Below are positions 19,089 to 25,109 of a stretch of DNA of 64,000 nucleotides, in pieces. Made by a program: the position numbers and the translations under genes. Source of the DNA: Puniceicoccaceae bacterium (GTDB taxonomy: Bacteria; Verrucomicrobiota; Verrucomicrobiia; Opitutales; JAFGAQ01); NCBI GenBank assembly GCA_028285755.1, contig JANQOQ010000014.1, positions 310,001-374,000 on the forward strand. Reading direction: 5' to 3'. Within the stretch, counting starts at the first letter, position 1, and each line of letters begins with the position of its first letter. The notes under the pieces were generated by a model. It searched no databases. It saw nothing but the letters and a program-made list of their open reading frames with translations, and was not told the origin of the DNA.

Positions 19089-19151
19089 AAAGATTTCATC
19101 CTTTTACGCTCGTTCGCAAGCGGGAATCACATACCTTTATATGTGATGACC

Positions 19152-20582
19152 ATGAATCGTAGGCAGTTTGTCGGAGCACTCGGTGCCACAGCGATGGCTA
19201 GCCCTTGGTTGCATTCCATGAATCAACCTCGAAAGCCGAATGTGCTCATCATTCAGCCGGATCAGCATCTGGGTCTGTTCATGGGGTGCGCAGGGCACCC
19301 GCAGATTCAAACACCGAATTTGGACAAACTCGCTCAGCAGGGTACCCGTTTTCACAACTCGGTTGCCAACTCCCCCGTATGCTGCCCCTGGCGCGGCTCC
19401 ATGCAGACAGGCCTGTATTGGCATCAGCATGGTGTGATTTCCAATAATCTGCAGCTCGATTTTAAACATCGCTGTATCGCGGAGATTTTTGCGGATGATG
19501 GTTATGACACCGGTTATATCGGCAAGTGGCACCTGGATGGGGGAGATCCGAAAACCCGACCCACCGGTAATGCAATCCCCCCCGGCCCAAATCGGCAGGG
19601 TTGGCAGGAATGGTGGGGCCACCAGAAAGGGCATACCTTCTATCAGCCCCATTACTACAGGGATAATGGAGAAGAAGTGCGACTGGAGAATTATGAATGG
19701 GAGCCCGCATGGCATACCGATAGGGCGCTCGATTTTGCTCGGCGCAAATCCAGGGAAAATAAGCCCTGGCTTTATTATGTATCTTACGGCCCTCCCCATA
19801 ATCCTACCGATTGTCCACAGCGTTTTTTAGACATGTATCCGCAGGCGGATATCCAGCTTAATCCGGCTCAACGGCGGTCCCTAAAGACTAAAGACGAGGA
19901 GATGAAATTGCGGCAACTGATGCAAGTCTACATGGGCCAGATCACCTGGGTGGATTACGAAGTCGGTCGTTTGCTTAAAGGACTGGAAGAACAGGGAATC
20001 GCCGATAATACCCTGATCATGTACACCTCCGATCACGGCGATAACCTTTTAACCCATCGTTATGATAAGGGCGGTGGCGGACTCGCATATCGCGGAAAGT
20101 CCACTCCCTTACAGTATGCCTACAATGTCCCCCTGATTTTTCGGTGGCCTGGTAAGGTTAAGGCGGGCCAGGTTCACGATACCCTGACCTCGGGTGTAGA
20201 TCTTACGCCCACATTGCTGGATATGGCGGGTTTGGGAAAGCATACCGCTCACATGCCGGGGCATTCCCTGAAAGACTGGCTGATTCAGGGAGAAGGTCAC
20301 AAACAGCAAGCGATCTACATGGGTCTGGGGGGTACGGATATGCAAGATAAAGGCAGCTGGAGAGCCGTCTACGATGGACGTTACTGCTACTCACCCGATT
20401 TCCAGTATATGGGAGACAAATCAAACCGGGGAGTCCTATGGGACTATCGCAATGATCCTCATGAGCTGGAAAATCGGATTTCGAATAAACCAATAACAGG
20501 CTCACTCAAGGATACCTTATTTGAATTCATGAAAGATACCGAAGACCCTAGGCTCCGAAATCTTCGGCAACTTCTGGCGTAG
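19152..20582 (+). CDS. Tat-exported sulfatase (type I, formylglycine-dependent)
   Basis: A 476-residue arylsulfatase-type enzyme that should remove sulfate esters, probably from a sulfated glycan. The leader MNRRQFVGALGATAMASPW is of twin-arginine type. The sulfatase signature CCPWRGSMQTG contains the cysteine for conversion to formylglycine (C-x-P-x-R); metal-binding residues sit in IIQPDQHLGL and YTSDHGDN, and GYIGKWHLDGG carries the usual Lys and His. Three in-frame starts (GTG 19143, ATG 19146, ATG 19152) exist; 19152 is chosen because the two following genes also begin MNRR. The substrate is not readable. No formylglycine-generating enzyme is in the window. Confidence 0.9.
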   Translation: MNRRQFVGALGATAMASPWLHSMNQPRKPNVLIIQPDQHLGLFMGCAGHPQIQTPNLDKLAQQGTRFHNSVANSPVCCPWRGSMQTGLYWHQHGVISNNLQLDFKHRCIAEIFADDGYDTGYIGKWHLDGGDPKTRPTGNAIPPGPNRQGWQEWWGHQKGHTFYQPHYYRDNGEEVRLENYEWEPAWHTDRALDFARRKSRENKPWLYYVSYGPPHNPTDCPQRFLDMYPQADIQLNPAQRRSLKTKDEEMKLRQLMQVYMGQITWVDYEVGRLLKGLEEQGIADNTLIMYTSDHGDNLLTHRYDKGGGGLAYRGKSTPLQYAYNVPLIFRWPGKVKAGQVHDTLTSGVDLTPTLLDMAGLGKHTAHMPGHSLKDWLIQGEGHKQQAIYMGLGGTDMQDKGSWRAVYDGRYCYSPDFQYMGDKSNRGVLWDYRNDPHELENRISNKPITGSLKDTLFEFMKDTEDPRLRNLRQLLA

Positions 20583-20708
20583 GCCTGATTCTAACAGTTA
20601 GTTTGGAAAAATTTTCTCTTTGGCCTTTACTCAAACGTTTTAGTATTTATTTTGGCGATTGGCTATATTTTCAACTAGTCTACAGAATAACCCTAAATCC
20701 CATTTACC

Positions 20709-22055
20709 ATGAATCGAAGAACCTTCCTTGAAAAATCCGCAGTTGCCAGTGCCGGTGTTTTGGCCGGTAGTGTTGCCTTAAACTCTAAATCTTACGCCCG
20801 GGTACCGGGAGCAAACGATCGCATCCGCGTGGGTGTTGCCGGCTTTGCCAATCGCTTTAAAGGCTCATTAGGGCCTGCTTTTATGGCATTGGCCGAAGAG
20901 TATAATGTAGAATTTGTGGGGGTTTCGGATATTTGGAACCGCCGCAGAGATGAAGCCCAGCAGTTCTTCAAGGAAAAGTATGATCTGGATATGCCGGTTT
21001 ATCGCAACAATGAGGAACTCTACGAGAAGGCAAAGCCCGATGCGGTCATTATAGCTACCGCAGATTTTCAACATGGGTTACACCTTATTGAGGCTGTCGA
21101 AGCCGGTGCAGATGTTTATTGTGAAAAACCGTTTGCAGAAACCATGGCGGATGCGCGTGCTGCGCTGAAGGTAGCCAACGCATCCGATCGCGTTATCACC
21201 ATCGGTTCTCAACGCCGCAGTGGTACCAGTTATCATGCTGCCTATGACTATCTACAAAGCGGTAAATTCGGGGATATTGTCTGTGTCGAAATGACCTGGA
21301 ATGTGAACCAGCCCGGTCGCTGGCGTCTACCTCATCTGACTTCCACGATCAAGGAATCGGACACGGATTGGAAGCGCTACCTCATGAACCGTCCCTATGA
21401 AAAATGGGATCCTCGCAAGTATTGCGAATACCGCCTCTTCTGGCCTTATTCATCCGGAATCCCGGGTCAATGGATGTGCCACCAGATTGATACCGTGCAC
21501 TGGTTCACCGGCCTGCCTCATCCCCGCAGTGTGAGCGCGAATGGGGGTATCTATTTATGGAAGGACGGTCGTCAAAATTTTGATACGATGACCGCCGTAT
21601 TCGATTATGGTCCATTGGATGATCCTTCCACCGGATTCCAGGTAATCTACTCATCACGATTCACGAATTCTGCCGGCCGCACCAAGGAAATTTATTATTC
21701 CAATGGGGGCGAGCTAAACCTCAACACCCGTAAGGTAAGCGCAAATGGAGGCCTCGAAGAACGTTATGCATCTGCTATGGATATGAAGCCGAACTTGCTC
21801 GATGAATATAATCTGGAAGGACAGGCCGCTACTACCGCAGCGAATACCGGTGCCGATAATATGACTACGGCTCACATGCGTAACTGGCTTGAGTGCCTCC
21901 GCACCCGCAAAAAAACCAATGCACCCGTTGAAGCCGGTTATCAGCACGCGATCGCCTGTATCATGGCTAACGCAGCGGCACGCACTGGAAAACGCGTTAC
22001 ATTTGATGAAAAACGGCAGGAGGTACTTGCTGGGGGCGAAGTCTTTCATATCTAG
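20709..22055 (+). CDS. Tat-exported Gfo/Idh/MocA family oxidoreductase
   Basis: A 448-residue NAD(P)-dependent sugar oxidoreductase family member. The twin-arginine-like leader MNRRTFLEKSAVASAGVLAGS precedes a Rossmann domain that begins IRVGVAGFANR and carries the family motif DVYCEKPFAETMADA with the catalytic lysine (about residue 141). The C-terminal half is the Gfo/Idh alpha/beta domain, including SGIPGQWMCHQIDTVHWF with likely catalytic histidine. Relatives act on glucose, fructose, inositol or glycosides, and exported forms such as glucose-fructose oxidoreductase are folded with bound cofactor before Tat export. It is 126 bp after the sulfatase and 16 bp before the isomerase-like gene. 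Confidence 0.88.
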   Translation: MNRRTFLEKSAVASAGVLAGSVALNSKSYARVPGANDRIRVGVAGFANRFKGSLGPAFMALAEEYNVEFVGVSDIWNRRRDEAQQFFKEKYDLDMPVYRNNEELYEKAKPDAVIIATADFQHGLHLIEAVEAGADVYCEKPFAETMADARAALKVANASDRVITIGSQRRSGTSYHAAYDYLQSGKFGDIVCVEMTWNVNQPGRWRLPHLTSTIKESDTDWKRYLMNRPYEKWDPRKYCEYRLFWPYSSGIPGQWMCHQIDTVHWFTGLPHPRSVSANGGIYLWKDGRQNFDTMTAVFDYGPLDDPSTGFQVIYSSRFTNSAGRTKEIYYSNGGELNLNTRKVSANGGLEERYASAMDMKPNLLDEYNLEGQAATTAANTGADNMTTAHMRNWLECLRTRKKTNAPVEAGYQHAIACIMANAAARTGKRVTFDEKRQEVLAGGEVFHI

Positions 22056-22071
22056 TTAGGAGACACTTATT

Positions 22072-22953
22072 ATGAACCGACGTGACTTTGTAAGAAACTC
22101 CGCAGGTCTCGCGACCGTTGCAGCCTGGCAGTTATCCCAACCCTCTCAACTGCTTGCAGGTAATCACGCCCTGTTTTCCAAAATGGGGATCACCGCATCC
22201 TTTGATAATTCCAAAGCCTTAAAGGCGGCCGGTGCCCAATTCATTACTGAAAACACAGGCAGGTTTTTAATGCCTGATCAGCCGGAAGAAGCCTTTGATG
22301 CTAAACTGGCTGAATTCAAAGCAAAATCGGCACTCCCGCTCTTTGCATGTAATAGTTTCATCCGACCCAAGCACTTACGCTGTGTGGGCGCAGATGCAAC
22401 TCCGGAGCAAGTGCTCGATTGGGCAGCGATATGCTTTAGGCGGCTCGCGAAAGCTGGCGGCAAGTATATCGTCTTCGGCAGTTCAGGCTCACGCAGACTC
22501 CGGGATGGATGGACGAAGGAACAGGCGGACGAACAGTTTATACCGTTGCTGCGACGCATGGGCAGACTTGCGGAAGTTGCGGGCGTAACCGTAGCCCTTG
22601 AACAACTCCGCGACCAGGAAGTGAACTACATCAACCATATTGAAGAAGGTGCCGAGATTGTGCGCGCAGTAGATCATCCCAACGTGCGCTTATTGGCCGA
22701 CTTCTTCCACATGTTGCATGTGGGGGATACTCCCAAGGATCTGGATAAAGCCATGGATGTAGTCGTGCACTGCGAGATTGCTGAGAAAGAAGGCCGTACG
22801 GTTCCGGGCATAAACGGAGAGGACTTCACTCCATTTTTCAAGGTCTTGAAGAAAAATGGCTACAAAGGAGCCATCTCGATCGAAGGTCGCTGGGAAATCG
22901 AACAGCTTCCGATTGGCTTTAAGACGATCGCCGAGCAGGCCAAAAAGGCCTAG
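22072..22953 (+). CDS. Tat-exported sugar isomerase/epimerase-like TIM-barrel protein
   Basis: A 293-residue protein of the AP-endonuclease-2-like TIM-barrel superfamily, which contains sugar isomerases and epimerases. The leader MNRRDFVRNSAGLATVAAW has the RR-D-F Tat pattern. Candidate metal ligands appear in the expected order: Glu in VALEQLRD, Asp in LLADFFHMLHVGD, His in VVHCEIAE, and Glu in ISIEGRW. A good AGGAGA site lies 11 bp before the ATG, and the gap to the oxidoreductase gene is 16 bp, so the two are translated together. It probably acts on the same sugar as its neighbour. It is convergent with the next sulfatase gene, 14 bp away. Confidence 0.85.
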   Translation: MNRRDFVRNSAGLATVAAWQLSQPSQLLAGNHALFSKMGITASFDNSKALKAAGAQFITENTGRFLMPDQPEEAFDAKLAEFKAKSALPLFACNSFIRPKHLRCVGADATPEQVLDWAAICFRRLAKAGGKYIVFGSSGSRRLRDGWTKEQADEQFIPLLRRMGRLAEVAGVTVALEQLRDQEVNYINHIEEGAEIVRAVDHPNVRLLADFFHMLHVGDTPKDLDKAMDVVVHCEIAEKEGRTVPGINGEDFTPFFKVLKKNGYKGAISIEGRWEIEQLPIGFKTIAEQAKKA

Positions 22954-22967
22954 GCAAGCGTATTGAC

Positions 22968-25109
22968 TTAGCTAAGTCTTTTCAGAGAAACGCTATCTTC
23001 CTTATAAATAATCTGGAAGGTAGCGTTTTCTGTTTTTACGAGATCATCCGGGTTGTTGAAGTTTCCTTCTACCGACTTCGCTTCAATGATCACACGACTC
23101 TCTCCCGCTTCTAGCGAGCGGATATGTTCAGCATTAATCGCCAGTGTCCCATTTAAGGTTAGGCTACCGCTCACGGTTAAACTGGGCGCTTCTTTAAGTA
23201 TAGACAATTCCAGTTCTCCGGACACGTAAAAATCGCTCGAGATCTTGCCGTGCCCCACTAAACGAGCCCCTCGATTGAGCTCTACCCAGCGCATTGATCT
23301 AAGCCGTGCGCCATTTAAATAAGTGACTGAGAGGGGTGCCATCCGCACTTCATTGCGCCCGTTAAGTGTTATTTTTGGCGAAAGCTTGAGACTGATTTTG
23401 GAACCCGATTCAAGATCGCCTCGTACTTCCAGGCCCAGGACATTGATTGAATCTTTGAGTCTGACAGTCTGGTCTTTACCCGTGGTATTGGTCACAACTG
23501 CATTCCAGTTTTCGGTAGGCGTTTCACTCTGCGGCCATTTCCGCTCAAAGGGCCATTCTCCCGTTTCCTGCCAGCTCGATGCGTCATTTACATCAGCTCC
23601 GTCCTTACCTATCCACGTCGGCCAAACATTAGCGTAGAAATCATGGGCATCCAGATTATCAGCATAAGCAATGGCCTTGAGTAAATCAGCTGTTTTTGCG
23701 TATTGAGCCTTATTGATGAGACTGTCAGATTCGGACGGATCTTTTTTGATATCATACAAGTCAAAGCTTCCATCCCGGCGTTTTATCAGCTTGATATCAT
23801 CCCGAATAACCGCCCATGTGGTAGTATCACGAAGATTCGCTTCATAGCTGAAATGGGGTCTTATGCGCTGTTTACCTTTACCCGTAATGAGTGGAGCGAT
23901 GGAAACTCCATCGAGCCCAACCGGCGCTTCGACTCCCGCAAGCTCACAAAATGTTGGGAAAATATCCGTGACACACGTTTTAAAATCAGTCGTTTGGCCC
24001 GGTTCAATAACCCCCTCCCAATAAAAGGCCAGCGGTGTCCGCAGGCTCCCCTCATCGATTCCGGTTTTAAAACCTTTGAGATGTCCATTTGCATTAAAGA
24101 ACTCCAGCATGGGATTACGTGCTCCCCCATTGTCAGATGAAAAAATTACGAGCGTATCTGCCATCAGTGAGTCAGACTCATCTCCATCGCCGTTGGGATC
24201 ACGCAGAGTCGCCATAATTTCACCAATACGCTTATCCATAAGCGTCATCATCGCAGCATACCACTTCGTCCGTTGATCCCATGTCGAGGTATCAGTATCC
24301 GCATAATCATCAAACCACCCCTCTACAGTCTCAATTTCATCAAAGGGTGCGTGCGGCACCTGAAACGAAACCTGCACGAAAAATGGAGATGGCTCTTTTG
24401 CTTCCTCACGAATAAATTTCATGGCTCCGGCCGCAAAGTAATTATCCGCATACAAATCGTATTCGGGAAACTGCTTTCGGTTATCCAGAAGAGTGGTGGG
24501 TAGCGTAATCGTGCCATCGCGTGCAATGTGGGAATACCATAGGGTGGGCTGCAGAAAGGTGTGCGCCCGGATATGGTGTAGCTCGACTACGCAATCATGG
24601 TAGCCATGCTCGATCGGGATCGTTTGTTGGTTAGTGATTACCGGGGCATCGATATCGCGGGTCGCCCCATAGCCCCATTTGCCATACATTCCATTGCGGT
24701 ATCCGGCGGCTGCGAGCACTTTGCCGATTGTAGGGTCTTGTGTGCGCATTGCCTTATCATCTGCGGGGTCATTGCGGTCTGCCCAGGTGTGGCCCTGGTG
24801 AAAGCCGGTCTGTTGGCTGGAACGTGCGGGAGAGCAAACCGTCGCCCCATAGGAATGCGTAAAATTGATACCTCCGGCAACGATCTTGTCGATATTGGGC
24901 GTGATGATCTTGGAGACTTCTGTAATGTCCACACCGTAGCTTTGAGCGACTTTCGCGTTAGCCCGGATGCCCGCCCATCCCATGTCATCTGCATAAAAAT
25001 AGACGATATTGGGTCGGTCATCTGCCGATAATGCTGAAAGTGATAATATGGTAGCTAATCCTGCAACATGTGCAAGACGGACTAGGGAATACTTATTCTG
25101 GGGTATCAT
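22968..25109 (-). CDS. Secreted sulfatase with C-terminal beta-rich domain
   Basis: A 713-residue exported arylsulfatase-type enzyme. A Sec signal (about residues 1-29, ending LSALSA) is followed by the catalytic domain: PNIVYFYADDMGWAG with metal-binding aspartates, the formylglycine site GATVCSPARSSQQTG (C-x-P-x-R), MYGKWGYGATR, and FSSDNGGARNP. The catalytic fold ends near residue 510. The remaining 200 residues form a separate beta-rich region with short strand-turn repeats (VSGSLTLNGTLAI, VIIEAKSVEGNFNN) seen in surface or autotransporter-like proteins of this phylum. Such a domain may hold the enzyme at the cell surface or bind glycan. It is divergent from the beta-helix gene. Confidence 0.9.
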   Translation of the reverse strand: MIPQNKYSLVRLAHVAGLATILSLSALSADDRPNIVYFYADDMGWAGIRANAKVAQSYGVDITEVSKIITPNIDKIVAGGINFTHSYGATVCSPARSSQQTGFHQGHTWADRNDPADDKAMRTQDPTIGKVLAAAGYRNGMYGKWGYGATRDIDAPVITNQQTIPIEHGYHDCVVELHHIRAHTFLQPTLWYSHIARDGTITLPTTLLDNRKQFPEYDLYADNYFAAGAMKFIREEAKEPSPFFVQVSFQVPHAPFDEIETVEGWFDDYADTDTSTWDQRTKWYAAMMTLMDKRIGEIMATLRDPNGDGDESDSLMADTLVIFSSDNGGARNPMLEFFNANGHLKGFKTGIDEGSLRTPLAFYWEGVIEPGQTTDFKTCVTDIFPTFCELAGVEAPVGLDGVSIAPLITGKGKQRIRPHFSYEANLRDTTTWAVIRDDIKLIKRRDGSFDLYDIKKDPSESDSLINKAQYAKTADLLKAIAYADNLDAHDFYANVWPTWIGKDGADVNDASSWQETGEWPFERKWPQSETPTENWNAVVTNTTGKDQTVRLKDSINVLGLEVRGDLESGSKISLKLSPKITLNGRNEVRMAPLSVTYLNGARLRSMRWVELNRGARLVGHGKISSDFYVSGELELSILKEAPSLTVSGSLTLNGTLAINAEHIRSLEAGESRVIIEAKSVEGNFNNPDDLVKTENATFQIIYKEDSVSLKRLS

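Follow-up and report, generated by a model that had tools for sequence, protein, structure and literature searches.

A Gfo/Idh/MocA oxidoreductase and a xylose-isomerase-like triose-phosphate isomerase (TIM) barrel are encoded one after the other on a 64,000-nucleotide stretch (the window) of the genome of a Puniceicoccaceae bacterium (GCA_028285755.1, contig JANQOQ010000014.1; hereafter the own genome). With moderate confidence, we propose that the two form an exported module, which would rearrange a sugar or glycoside via a keto intermediate. Our best reading of the pair is an exported nicotinamide adenine dinucleotide (NAD)-dependent sugar or glycoside dehydrogenase together with a keto-sugar epimerase or isomerase, of the 3-keto-glycoside type, which is an already known kind. 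A sulfatase gene precedes the two, and a sequence-only reading of this DNA had joined all three proteins, each with a twin-arginine translocation (Tat)-type leader, into an unusual periplasmic route for a sulfated sugar. The coordinates and the Pfam families of the three consecutive genes at 19152-22953 were confirmed. The claim that emerges is sharper than the three-enzyme sulfated-sugar route, namely that the dehydrogenase and the TIM barrel are the conserved unit, with extracytoplasmic chemistry on keto-glycosides as the proposed model. The evidence that can be read from the sequences comprises the leaders, the families, the presumed active-site residues, the recurrence of the pair and a link between the oxidoreductase and DUF1080 genes in two relatives.

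The oxidoreductase and the TIM barrel were adjacent in all four genomes in which both were found (the own genome, G259, G402 and G157). The TIM-barrel gene directly follows the oxidoreductase gene in G259 and G402, and in G157 the order is reversed, a more distant TIM barrel preceding the oxidoreductase. In a draw of 384 genomes of the class, the own genome included, a TIM barrel was present in 4 of the 8 oxidoreductase genomes versus 21 of the 376 others (Fisher p 8e-4, kinship uncorrected). Within the family f31, the oxidoreductase (G165) or the TIM barrel (G134, G149) precedes a small gene common to the three genomes (84% and 83% identity), and the two seem to share one genomic site there. 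In the own genome, 9 of the 50 Gfo/Idh matches have a match to AP_endonuc_2, the family of the TIM barrel, within 1.6 kb on the same strand. As far as gene order indicates, the conserved unit is the leader-bearing oxidoreductase-TIM barrel pair. This recurrence argues against the view that three unrelated exported enzymes lie together by chance and have no common substrate, which we consider very improbable. That view would agree with the frequency of such leaders on the Gfo/Idh matches (given below), with the many TIM relatives that have no such neighbour, and with the patchy occurrence of the three genes, for which four genomes of the same family (two of them less than 90% complete) gave no match at the thresholds used.

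All three proteins open with MNRRxF and a hydrophobic stretch, as the sequence-only reading had claimed, and all three leaders passed a home-made Tat rule, which requires RR-x-hydrophobic followed by 12 hydrophobic residues without charge. TatC is encoded in the own genome. From the twin-arginine motif, the hydrophobic stretch and the presence of the Tat machinery, the three proteins are predicted Tat substrates. Domain matches in this genome of 4.25 Mb numbered 143 for sulfatase (PF00884), 50 for Gfo/Idh, 26 for AP_endonuc_2 and 19 for DUF1080; a few genes are counted twice, and one or two of the Gfo/Idh, AP_endonuc_2 and DUF1080 matches each lie below the curated cut-off (18 DUF1080 matches are above it). 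By the same rule, Tat-type leaders were present on 30 of the 50 Gfo/Idh matches, 7 of the 26 AP_endonuc_2 matches and 2 of 51 sampled sulfatases, the last being taken at even steps from 133 matches longer than 600 bp (batches 0/19, 2/19 and 0/13). One of the two positive sulfatases (L202) looks to be of the general secretory (Sec) type by eye. These counts make the oxidoreductase leader ordinary and the sulfatase leader rare in the own genome. Because so many Gfo/Idh matches bear such leaders, the leaders alone are no proof of a joint route and were rejected as such. For each of the 30 Tat-type Gfo/Idh matches, the turnover of an NAD enzyme in the periplasm needs an explanation. Among the 51 sampled sulfatases, the sole other one with a clear Tat-type leader was that at L235:7079-8458 (contig C15 of the own genome), and no relative of the window oxidoreductase or TIM barrel was found among its neighbours.

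The oxidoreductase scored 62.8 bits on PF01408 (gathering cut-off 24) and belongs to this superfamily. It has a Rossmann domain in which an Asp (D74) follows the second strand, and an Asp at this place of the fold favours NAD. Orthologues of 59-72% identity were found in eight other genomes; the gene was present in 3 of 132 related genomes and in 8 of the 384 genomes of the class draw, the own genome being counted in both sets, and tblastn finds a 70% orthologue in L059. In all seven aligned rows, the RR of the leader and E139-K140-P141 are invariant. Q254, H258 and D261 lie in the presumed substrate site. The best NCBIfam model was the glycoside 3-dehydrogenase BT_2158_fam (NF058561, E 1.9e-22), and the nearest solved chains were the dehydrogenases 8tdh and 8tdf.

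The link to 3-keto-glycoside chemistry was found in 2 of the 8 other oxidoreductase loci (G063 and G090), where an orthologue of 72% identity lies immediately behind a gene that contains two stretches of 3-keto-disaccharide hydrolase (DUF1080). A 58% homologue of the double-DUF1080 gene of G090 is present in the own genome at C2:511780-513126, on another contig than the window genes, and no relative of the sulfatase, the oxidoreductase or the TIM barrel lies beside it. The hydrolase was held by 5 of the 8 oxidoreductase genomes versus 32 of the 376 others (p 3e-4). Nine further hydrolase loci were read from the 37 genomes with a match; at five of them another Gfo/Idh gene lies on the same strand within 1.4 kb, and four of these five neighbours show an RRxF leader. 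In G254, the neighbour of the hydrolase is a sulfatase. BT2158 of Bacteroides thetaiotaomicron is a periplasmic glycoside 3-dehydrogenase, the mutant of which failed to grow on trehalose, leucrose or palatinose (PMC11300592), and the DUF1080-domain protein BT2157 hydrolyses 3-ketotrehalose (PMC9007349). Deletion of BT2158 or BT2157 caused no growth defect on raffinose-family sugars, unlike an earlier transposon study (PMC11501099). With BT2158 as a periplasmic precedent, with BT_2158_fam as the best NCBIfam match, and with Tat-type leaders on more than half of the Gfo/Idh matches, the word "unusual" for the proposed route was too strong.

The TIM barrel scored 95.7 bits on PF01261 (gathering cut-off 31.1), which assigns it to this fold. 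Using an 18-row profile, the nearest solved relatives included TM_0416 and the putative sugar isomerase 3kws, followed by epimerases, among them D-psicose/D-tagatose 3-epimerases and the 3-keto-D-glucoside 4-epimerase 6wn6. The presumed active-site residues E177, D210, H213, R242 and E271 are invariant in all 18 aligned rows. An RRxF motif near the N-terminus was found in 16 of 25 TIM rows (by regular expression, leaderless rows being excluded by hand), and these rows are clustered on the tree of 25 homologues, with 3 label changes versus 7.6 in shuffles. The tree and the set of 21 TIM loci were made without the homologues of G158, G092, G006, G007 and G088, which are 32-36% identical. A relative in G374 (L069:7103-8971; 40% identity over 264 aa) has a Sec-type leader and carries a cytochrome c domain at its C-terminus. 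Such a fusion of an electron carrier to a sugar-isomerase fold is unusual, and it fits the periplasm. Leaderless relatives in G204 (L070) and G395 (L237) adjoin short leaderless Gfo/Idh-like genes, and therefore a cytosolic counterpart of the exported pair seems to exist. The scan of genome contigs gave just two relatives of the TIM barrel from Bacteroidota. Beside the TIM-barrel orthologue of G031, a divergent gene (L025:6772-7731) encodes an aldolase of the HpcH/HpaI type, the leader of which looks Sec-type by eye, and just beyond it lies an apiosidase-like hydrolase; these are possibly another exported sugar-breaking set.

The order of steps that we infer for the pair is as follows. The oxidoreductase would fold around NAD in the cytoplasm, and the Tat machinery would carry the protein and the cofactor out together. 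The exported enzyme would oxidise a ring hydroxyl of its sugar or glycoside substrate, that at C3 by analogy with the BT2158-type glycoside 3-dehydrogenases. The TIM barrel would bind a divalent metal via E177, D210, E271 and probably E235, would take a proton next to the ketone, and would epimerise or isomerise the keto sugar. The keto product may be re-reduced, or may be split by a 3-keto-glycoside hydrolase of the DUF1080 type. The sulfatase would be a separate exported enzyme, which may occasionally supply the substrate of the pair. A more elaborate scheme, to which we give very little credence, is a redox-neutral relay with a captive cofactor: after the Tat-exported sulfatase has uncovered a hydroxyl, the Tat-exported oxidoreductase with its bound NAD would oxidise the glycoside there, the Glu235-type TIM barrel, likewise exported by Tat, would invert or shift the carbon next to it, and the oxidoreductase would then reduce the product, so that the NAD never leaves the enzyme.

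Several observations weigh against this assignment of the pair. At the thresholds used, five of the eight other oxidoreductase genomes had no TIM barrel. The oxidoreductase was lacking in 21 of the 25 genomes with a TIM match, and the leader is absent in 8 of the 25 TIM rows. No DUF1080 match lies within 2 kb of the window oxidoreductase, and a hydrolase in the same cluster, by which a 3-keto-glycoside pathway would be recognised, is missing there. The score of the oxidoreductase on BT_2158_fam was 79.5 bits, far from the curated cut-off of 750, and three of its orthologues likewise reached 74.8-82.5 bits. The Asp in the GDMACH motif of 8tdh and 8tdf is replaced by Gln (Q254) in all seven aligned rows, and the chemistry or the substrate of the oxidoreductase may be different from theirs. 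In the TIM barrel, E235 (window 22774-22776) occupies the place of the second His of the H-x-H motif of the solved epimerases, which we take to be a metal ligand in the ketose 3-epimerases. The metal and acid-base set of those enzymes is E-D-H-E, from which the window protein keeps E177, D210 and E271 and has E235 for the His. H233 as the metal His was withdrawn, since the His of the epimerases aligns with E235. Glu at this position was also found in 4 of the 17 other rows; His occupies it in the remaining 13 and in the five solved relatives shown. These four rows (G031, G402, G259 and G377; L025, L057, L058 and L062) are the nearest relatives of the window TIM barrel and form one supported clade with it in the tree. 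Three of the five Glu235-type TIM barrels are paired with the oxidoreductase, and the partner in G157 has His. The alignment suggests that the active site in this clade is shifted, perhaps with four carboxylates around the metal. Because Glu takes the place of the epimerase His, the reaction of the TIM barrel may not be that of the solved epimerases. The TIM barrel missed the NCBIfam cut-offs of all matched models (IolO, 71.6 of 300; D-psicose 3-epimerase, 47.7 of 300). Its structure prediction (AlphaFold, three sequences) had a mean predicted local distance difference test score (pLDDT) of 48.9 and was discarded.

The sulfatase looks like a rare Tat-type local neighbour and not a fixed partner, and its role in the same route is unproven. 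No sulfatase was present in the visible flanks of the eight other oxidoreductase loci (the contig of G157 is just 3 kb), in a scan that recovered both sulfatases of the window region as the positive control. The sulfatase relatives were sought in the 132 related genomes alone, and the sole one at E 1e-100 was that of G031 (52%), which has an RRQF leader by eye; in this genome, the TIM-barrel relative (63%) is on a different contig. Within the own genome, a same-strand sulfatase lies within 2 kb of 8 of the 50 Gfo/Idh matches versus 4.5 (standard deviation 2.2) expected at random placement, and this adjacency is near chance. Nine other places of the own genome have a sulfatase beside Gfo/Idh or TIM matches, and none of the seven sulfatases read has a Tat leader. 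A sulfatase directly adjoins a TIM-barrel relative in G177 and G153, which belong to one genus, and a distant one in G088 (3 of 26 TIM loci); the flanks of the other distant homologues, in G158, G092, G006 and G007, had no adjoining sulfatase. A conserved three-gene operon was not borne out by the flank scan of the oxidoreductase and TIM loci.

These results bear on the three-step pathway, in which the periplasmic sulfatase would desulfate an algal or other sulfated sugar and the oxidoreductase and the TIM barrel would act on the freed sugar. The same-strand sulfatase gene at a distance of 126 bp, the rarity of its leader and the three TIM loci with an adjoining sulfatase speak for such a pathway, and the 143 sulfatase matches point to sulfated polymers as important to the organism. 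Set against these are the eight oxidoreductase loci, the separate contigs in G031, the chance-like adjacency and the seven comparable sulfatases without a Tat leader, and we regard the three-step pathway as distinctly unlikely. A sulfated-sugar route is possible, without specific support. The shared pathway, which the sequence-only reading had inferred for all three proteins, holds up in part: the oxidoreductase and the TIM barrel recur as a leader-bearing pair, but the sulfatase is not supported as a step of their route. In the literature search, no triple like the sulfatase, the oxidoreductase and the TIM barrel was recognised, subscription papers being mostly outside its reach.

The features of the locus are summarized in Table 1. 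The sulfatase scored 190 bits on PF00884 (cut-off 25) and keeps the C-x-P-x-R motif (Cys77, CCPWR), and by this score and a C/S-x-P-x-R motif it is assigned to sulfatase S1. An alternative GTG start is open at 19143. The 126-bp gap has no listed consensus promoter or terminator and is compatible with a shared or a separate transcript; the promoter scan was uninformative (2 promoter-like sites in 4.8 kb versus 5.2 expected). The spacing from the oxidoreductase to the TIM barrel is 16 bp. The G+C content of the three genes is 50.5-51.9% versus 48.4% for the window, a difference that is not telling, and a foreign origin by composition was not adopted. The TIM-barrel gene and a second sulfatase gene (22968-25109, minus strand) are convergent. 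This second sulfatase has 713 aa and a Sec-type leader, and its C-terminal region of about 230 aa has no Pfam match.

Table 1. Features of the sulfatase, oxidoreductase and TIM-barrel locus in the window.
Feature	Position	Strand	Description
Sulfatase (PF00884 + SGSH_C)	19152..20582	+	476 aa; Tat-type leader of roughly 22 residues at the N-terminus; formylglycine motif C77-C-P-W-R
A+T-rich gap between sulfatase and oxidoreductase	20583..20708		126 bp, 33% G+C
Gfo/Idh/MocA oxidoreductase	20709..22055	+	448 aa; Tat-type leader MNRRTFLEKSAVASAGVLAGSVALNS; E139-K140-P141, D74, Q254/H258/D261
AGGAG, likely ribosome-binding site for the TIM-barrel gene	22058..22062	+	within the 16-bp gap after the oxidoreductase, read directly
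Xylose-isomerase-like TIM barrel (AP_endonuc_2)	22072..22953	+	293 aa; Tat-type leader MNRRDFVRNSAGLATVAAW

Compared with known systems, the window pair resembles BT2156-BT2160, in which the periplasmic glycoside 3-dehydrogenase BT2158 goes with the DUF1080 protein BT2157, in that the oxidoreductase orthologues of G063 and G090 follow a double-DUF1080 gene. It differs in having a TIM barrel as the partner, a DUF1080 homologue on another contig, and a score far below that of the BT2158 family. The dehydrogenases 8tdh and 8tdf are set apart from the window oxidoreductase by its Gln254 for the motif Asp. With TM_0416, the D-tagatose/D-psicose 3-epimerases and 6wn6, the window TIM barrel shares E177, D210, H213, R242 and E271, and it differs from them in Glu235 for His, in the export leader and in its sub-cut-off NCBIfam scores. 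The glucose-fructose oxidoreductase of Zymomonas mobilis (1evj, 1ofg, 1ryd, 1h6a), which is exported by Tat with its cofactor, is likewise a Gfo/Idh enzyme with an export leader and serves as a model of NAD(P) export; however, it matches the window oxidoreductase weakly (E 1.6e-7 to 3.8e-7), and no long N-terminal arm was seen by eye in the window protein.

Another comparison is with AtOGE and the C-glycoside beta-eliminases (CGE), and it raises the view that the TIM barrel acts on 3-keto-glycosides by beta-elimination, so that the pair would cleave glycosidic bonds and not epimerise. AtOGE is a TIM-barrel Mn enzyme in an operon with a Gfo oxidoreductase, and its metal-site barrel in such genetic company is like the window pair; its metal ligands are His132, Asp163, His189 and, weakly, Glu233, with His134 as the base (PMC10628242). 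The 3-keto-disaccharide hydrolases linked to the oxidoreductase in G063 and G090, and E235, which marks the site as non-standard for an epimerase, would agree with this view. On the other hand, the window TIM barrel has Glu (E177 and E235) in the places of both His132 and His189, these places being presumed without a direct alignment to AtOGE. Since AtOGE uses two His, it is, by these residues, no closer than the epimerases to the window TIM barrel. We think a beta-eliminase unlikely.

Returning to the exported oxidoreductase-TIM barrel module and its host, Verrucomicrobia have high sulfatase numbers, often beside exported polysaccharide genes (PMC5615132). With the sulfatase-rich Verrucomicrobia and Kiritimatiellales as the comparison group (PMC5615132, PMC6388578), the own genome with its 143 PF00884 matches is alike, whereas the Tat leader of the window sulfatase is rare within this genome.

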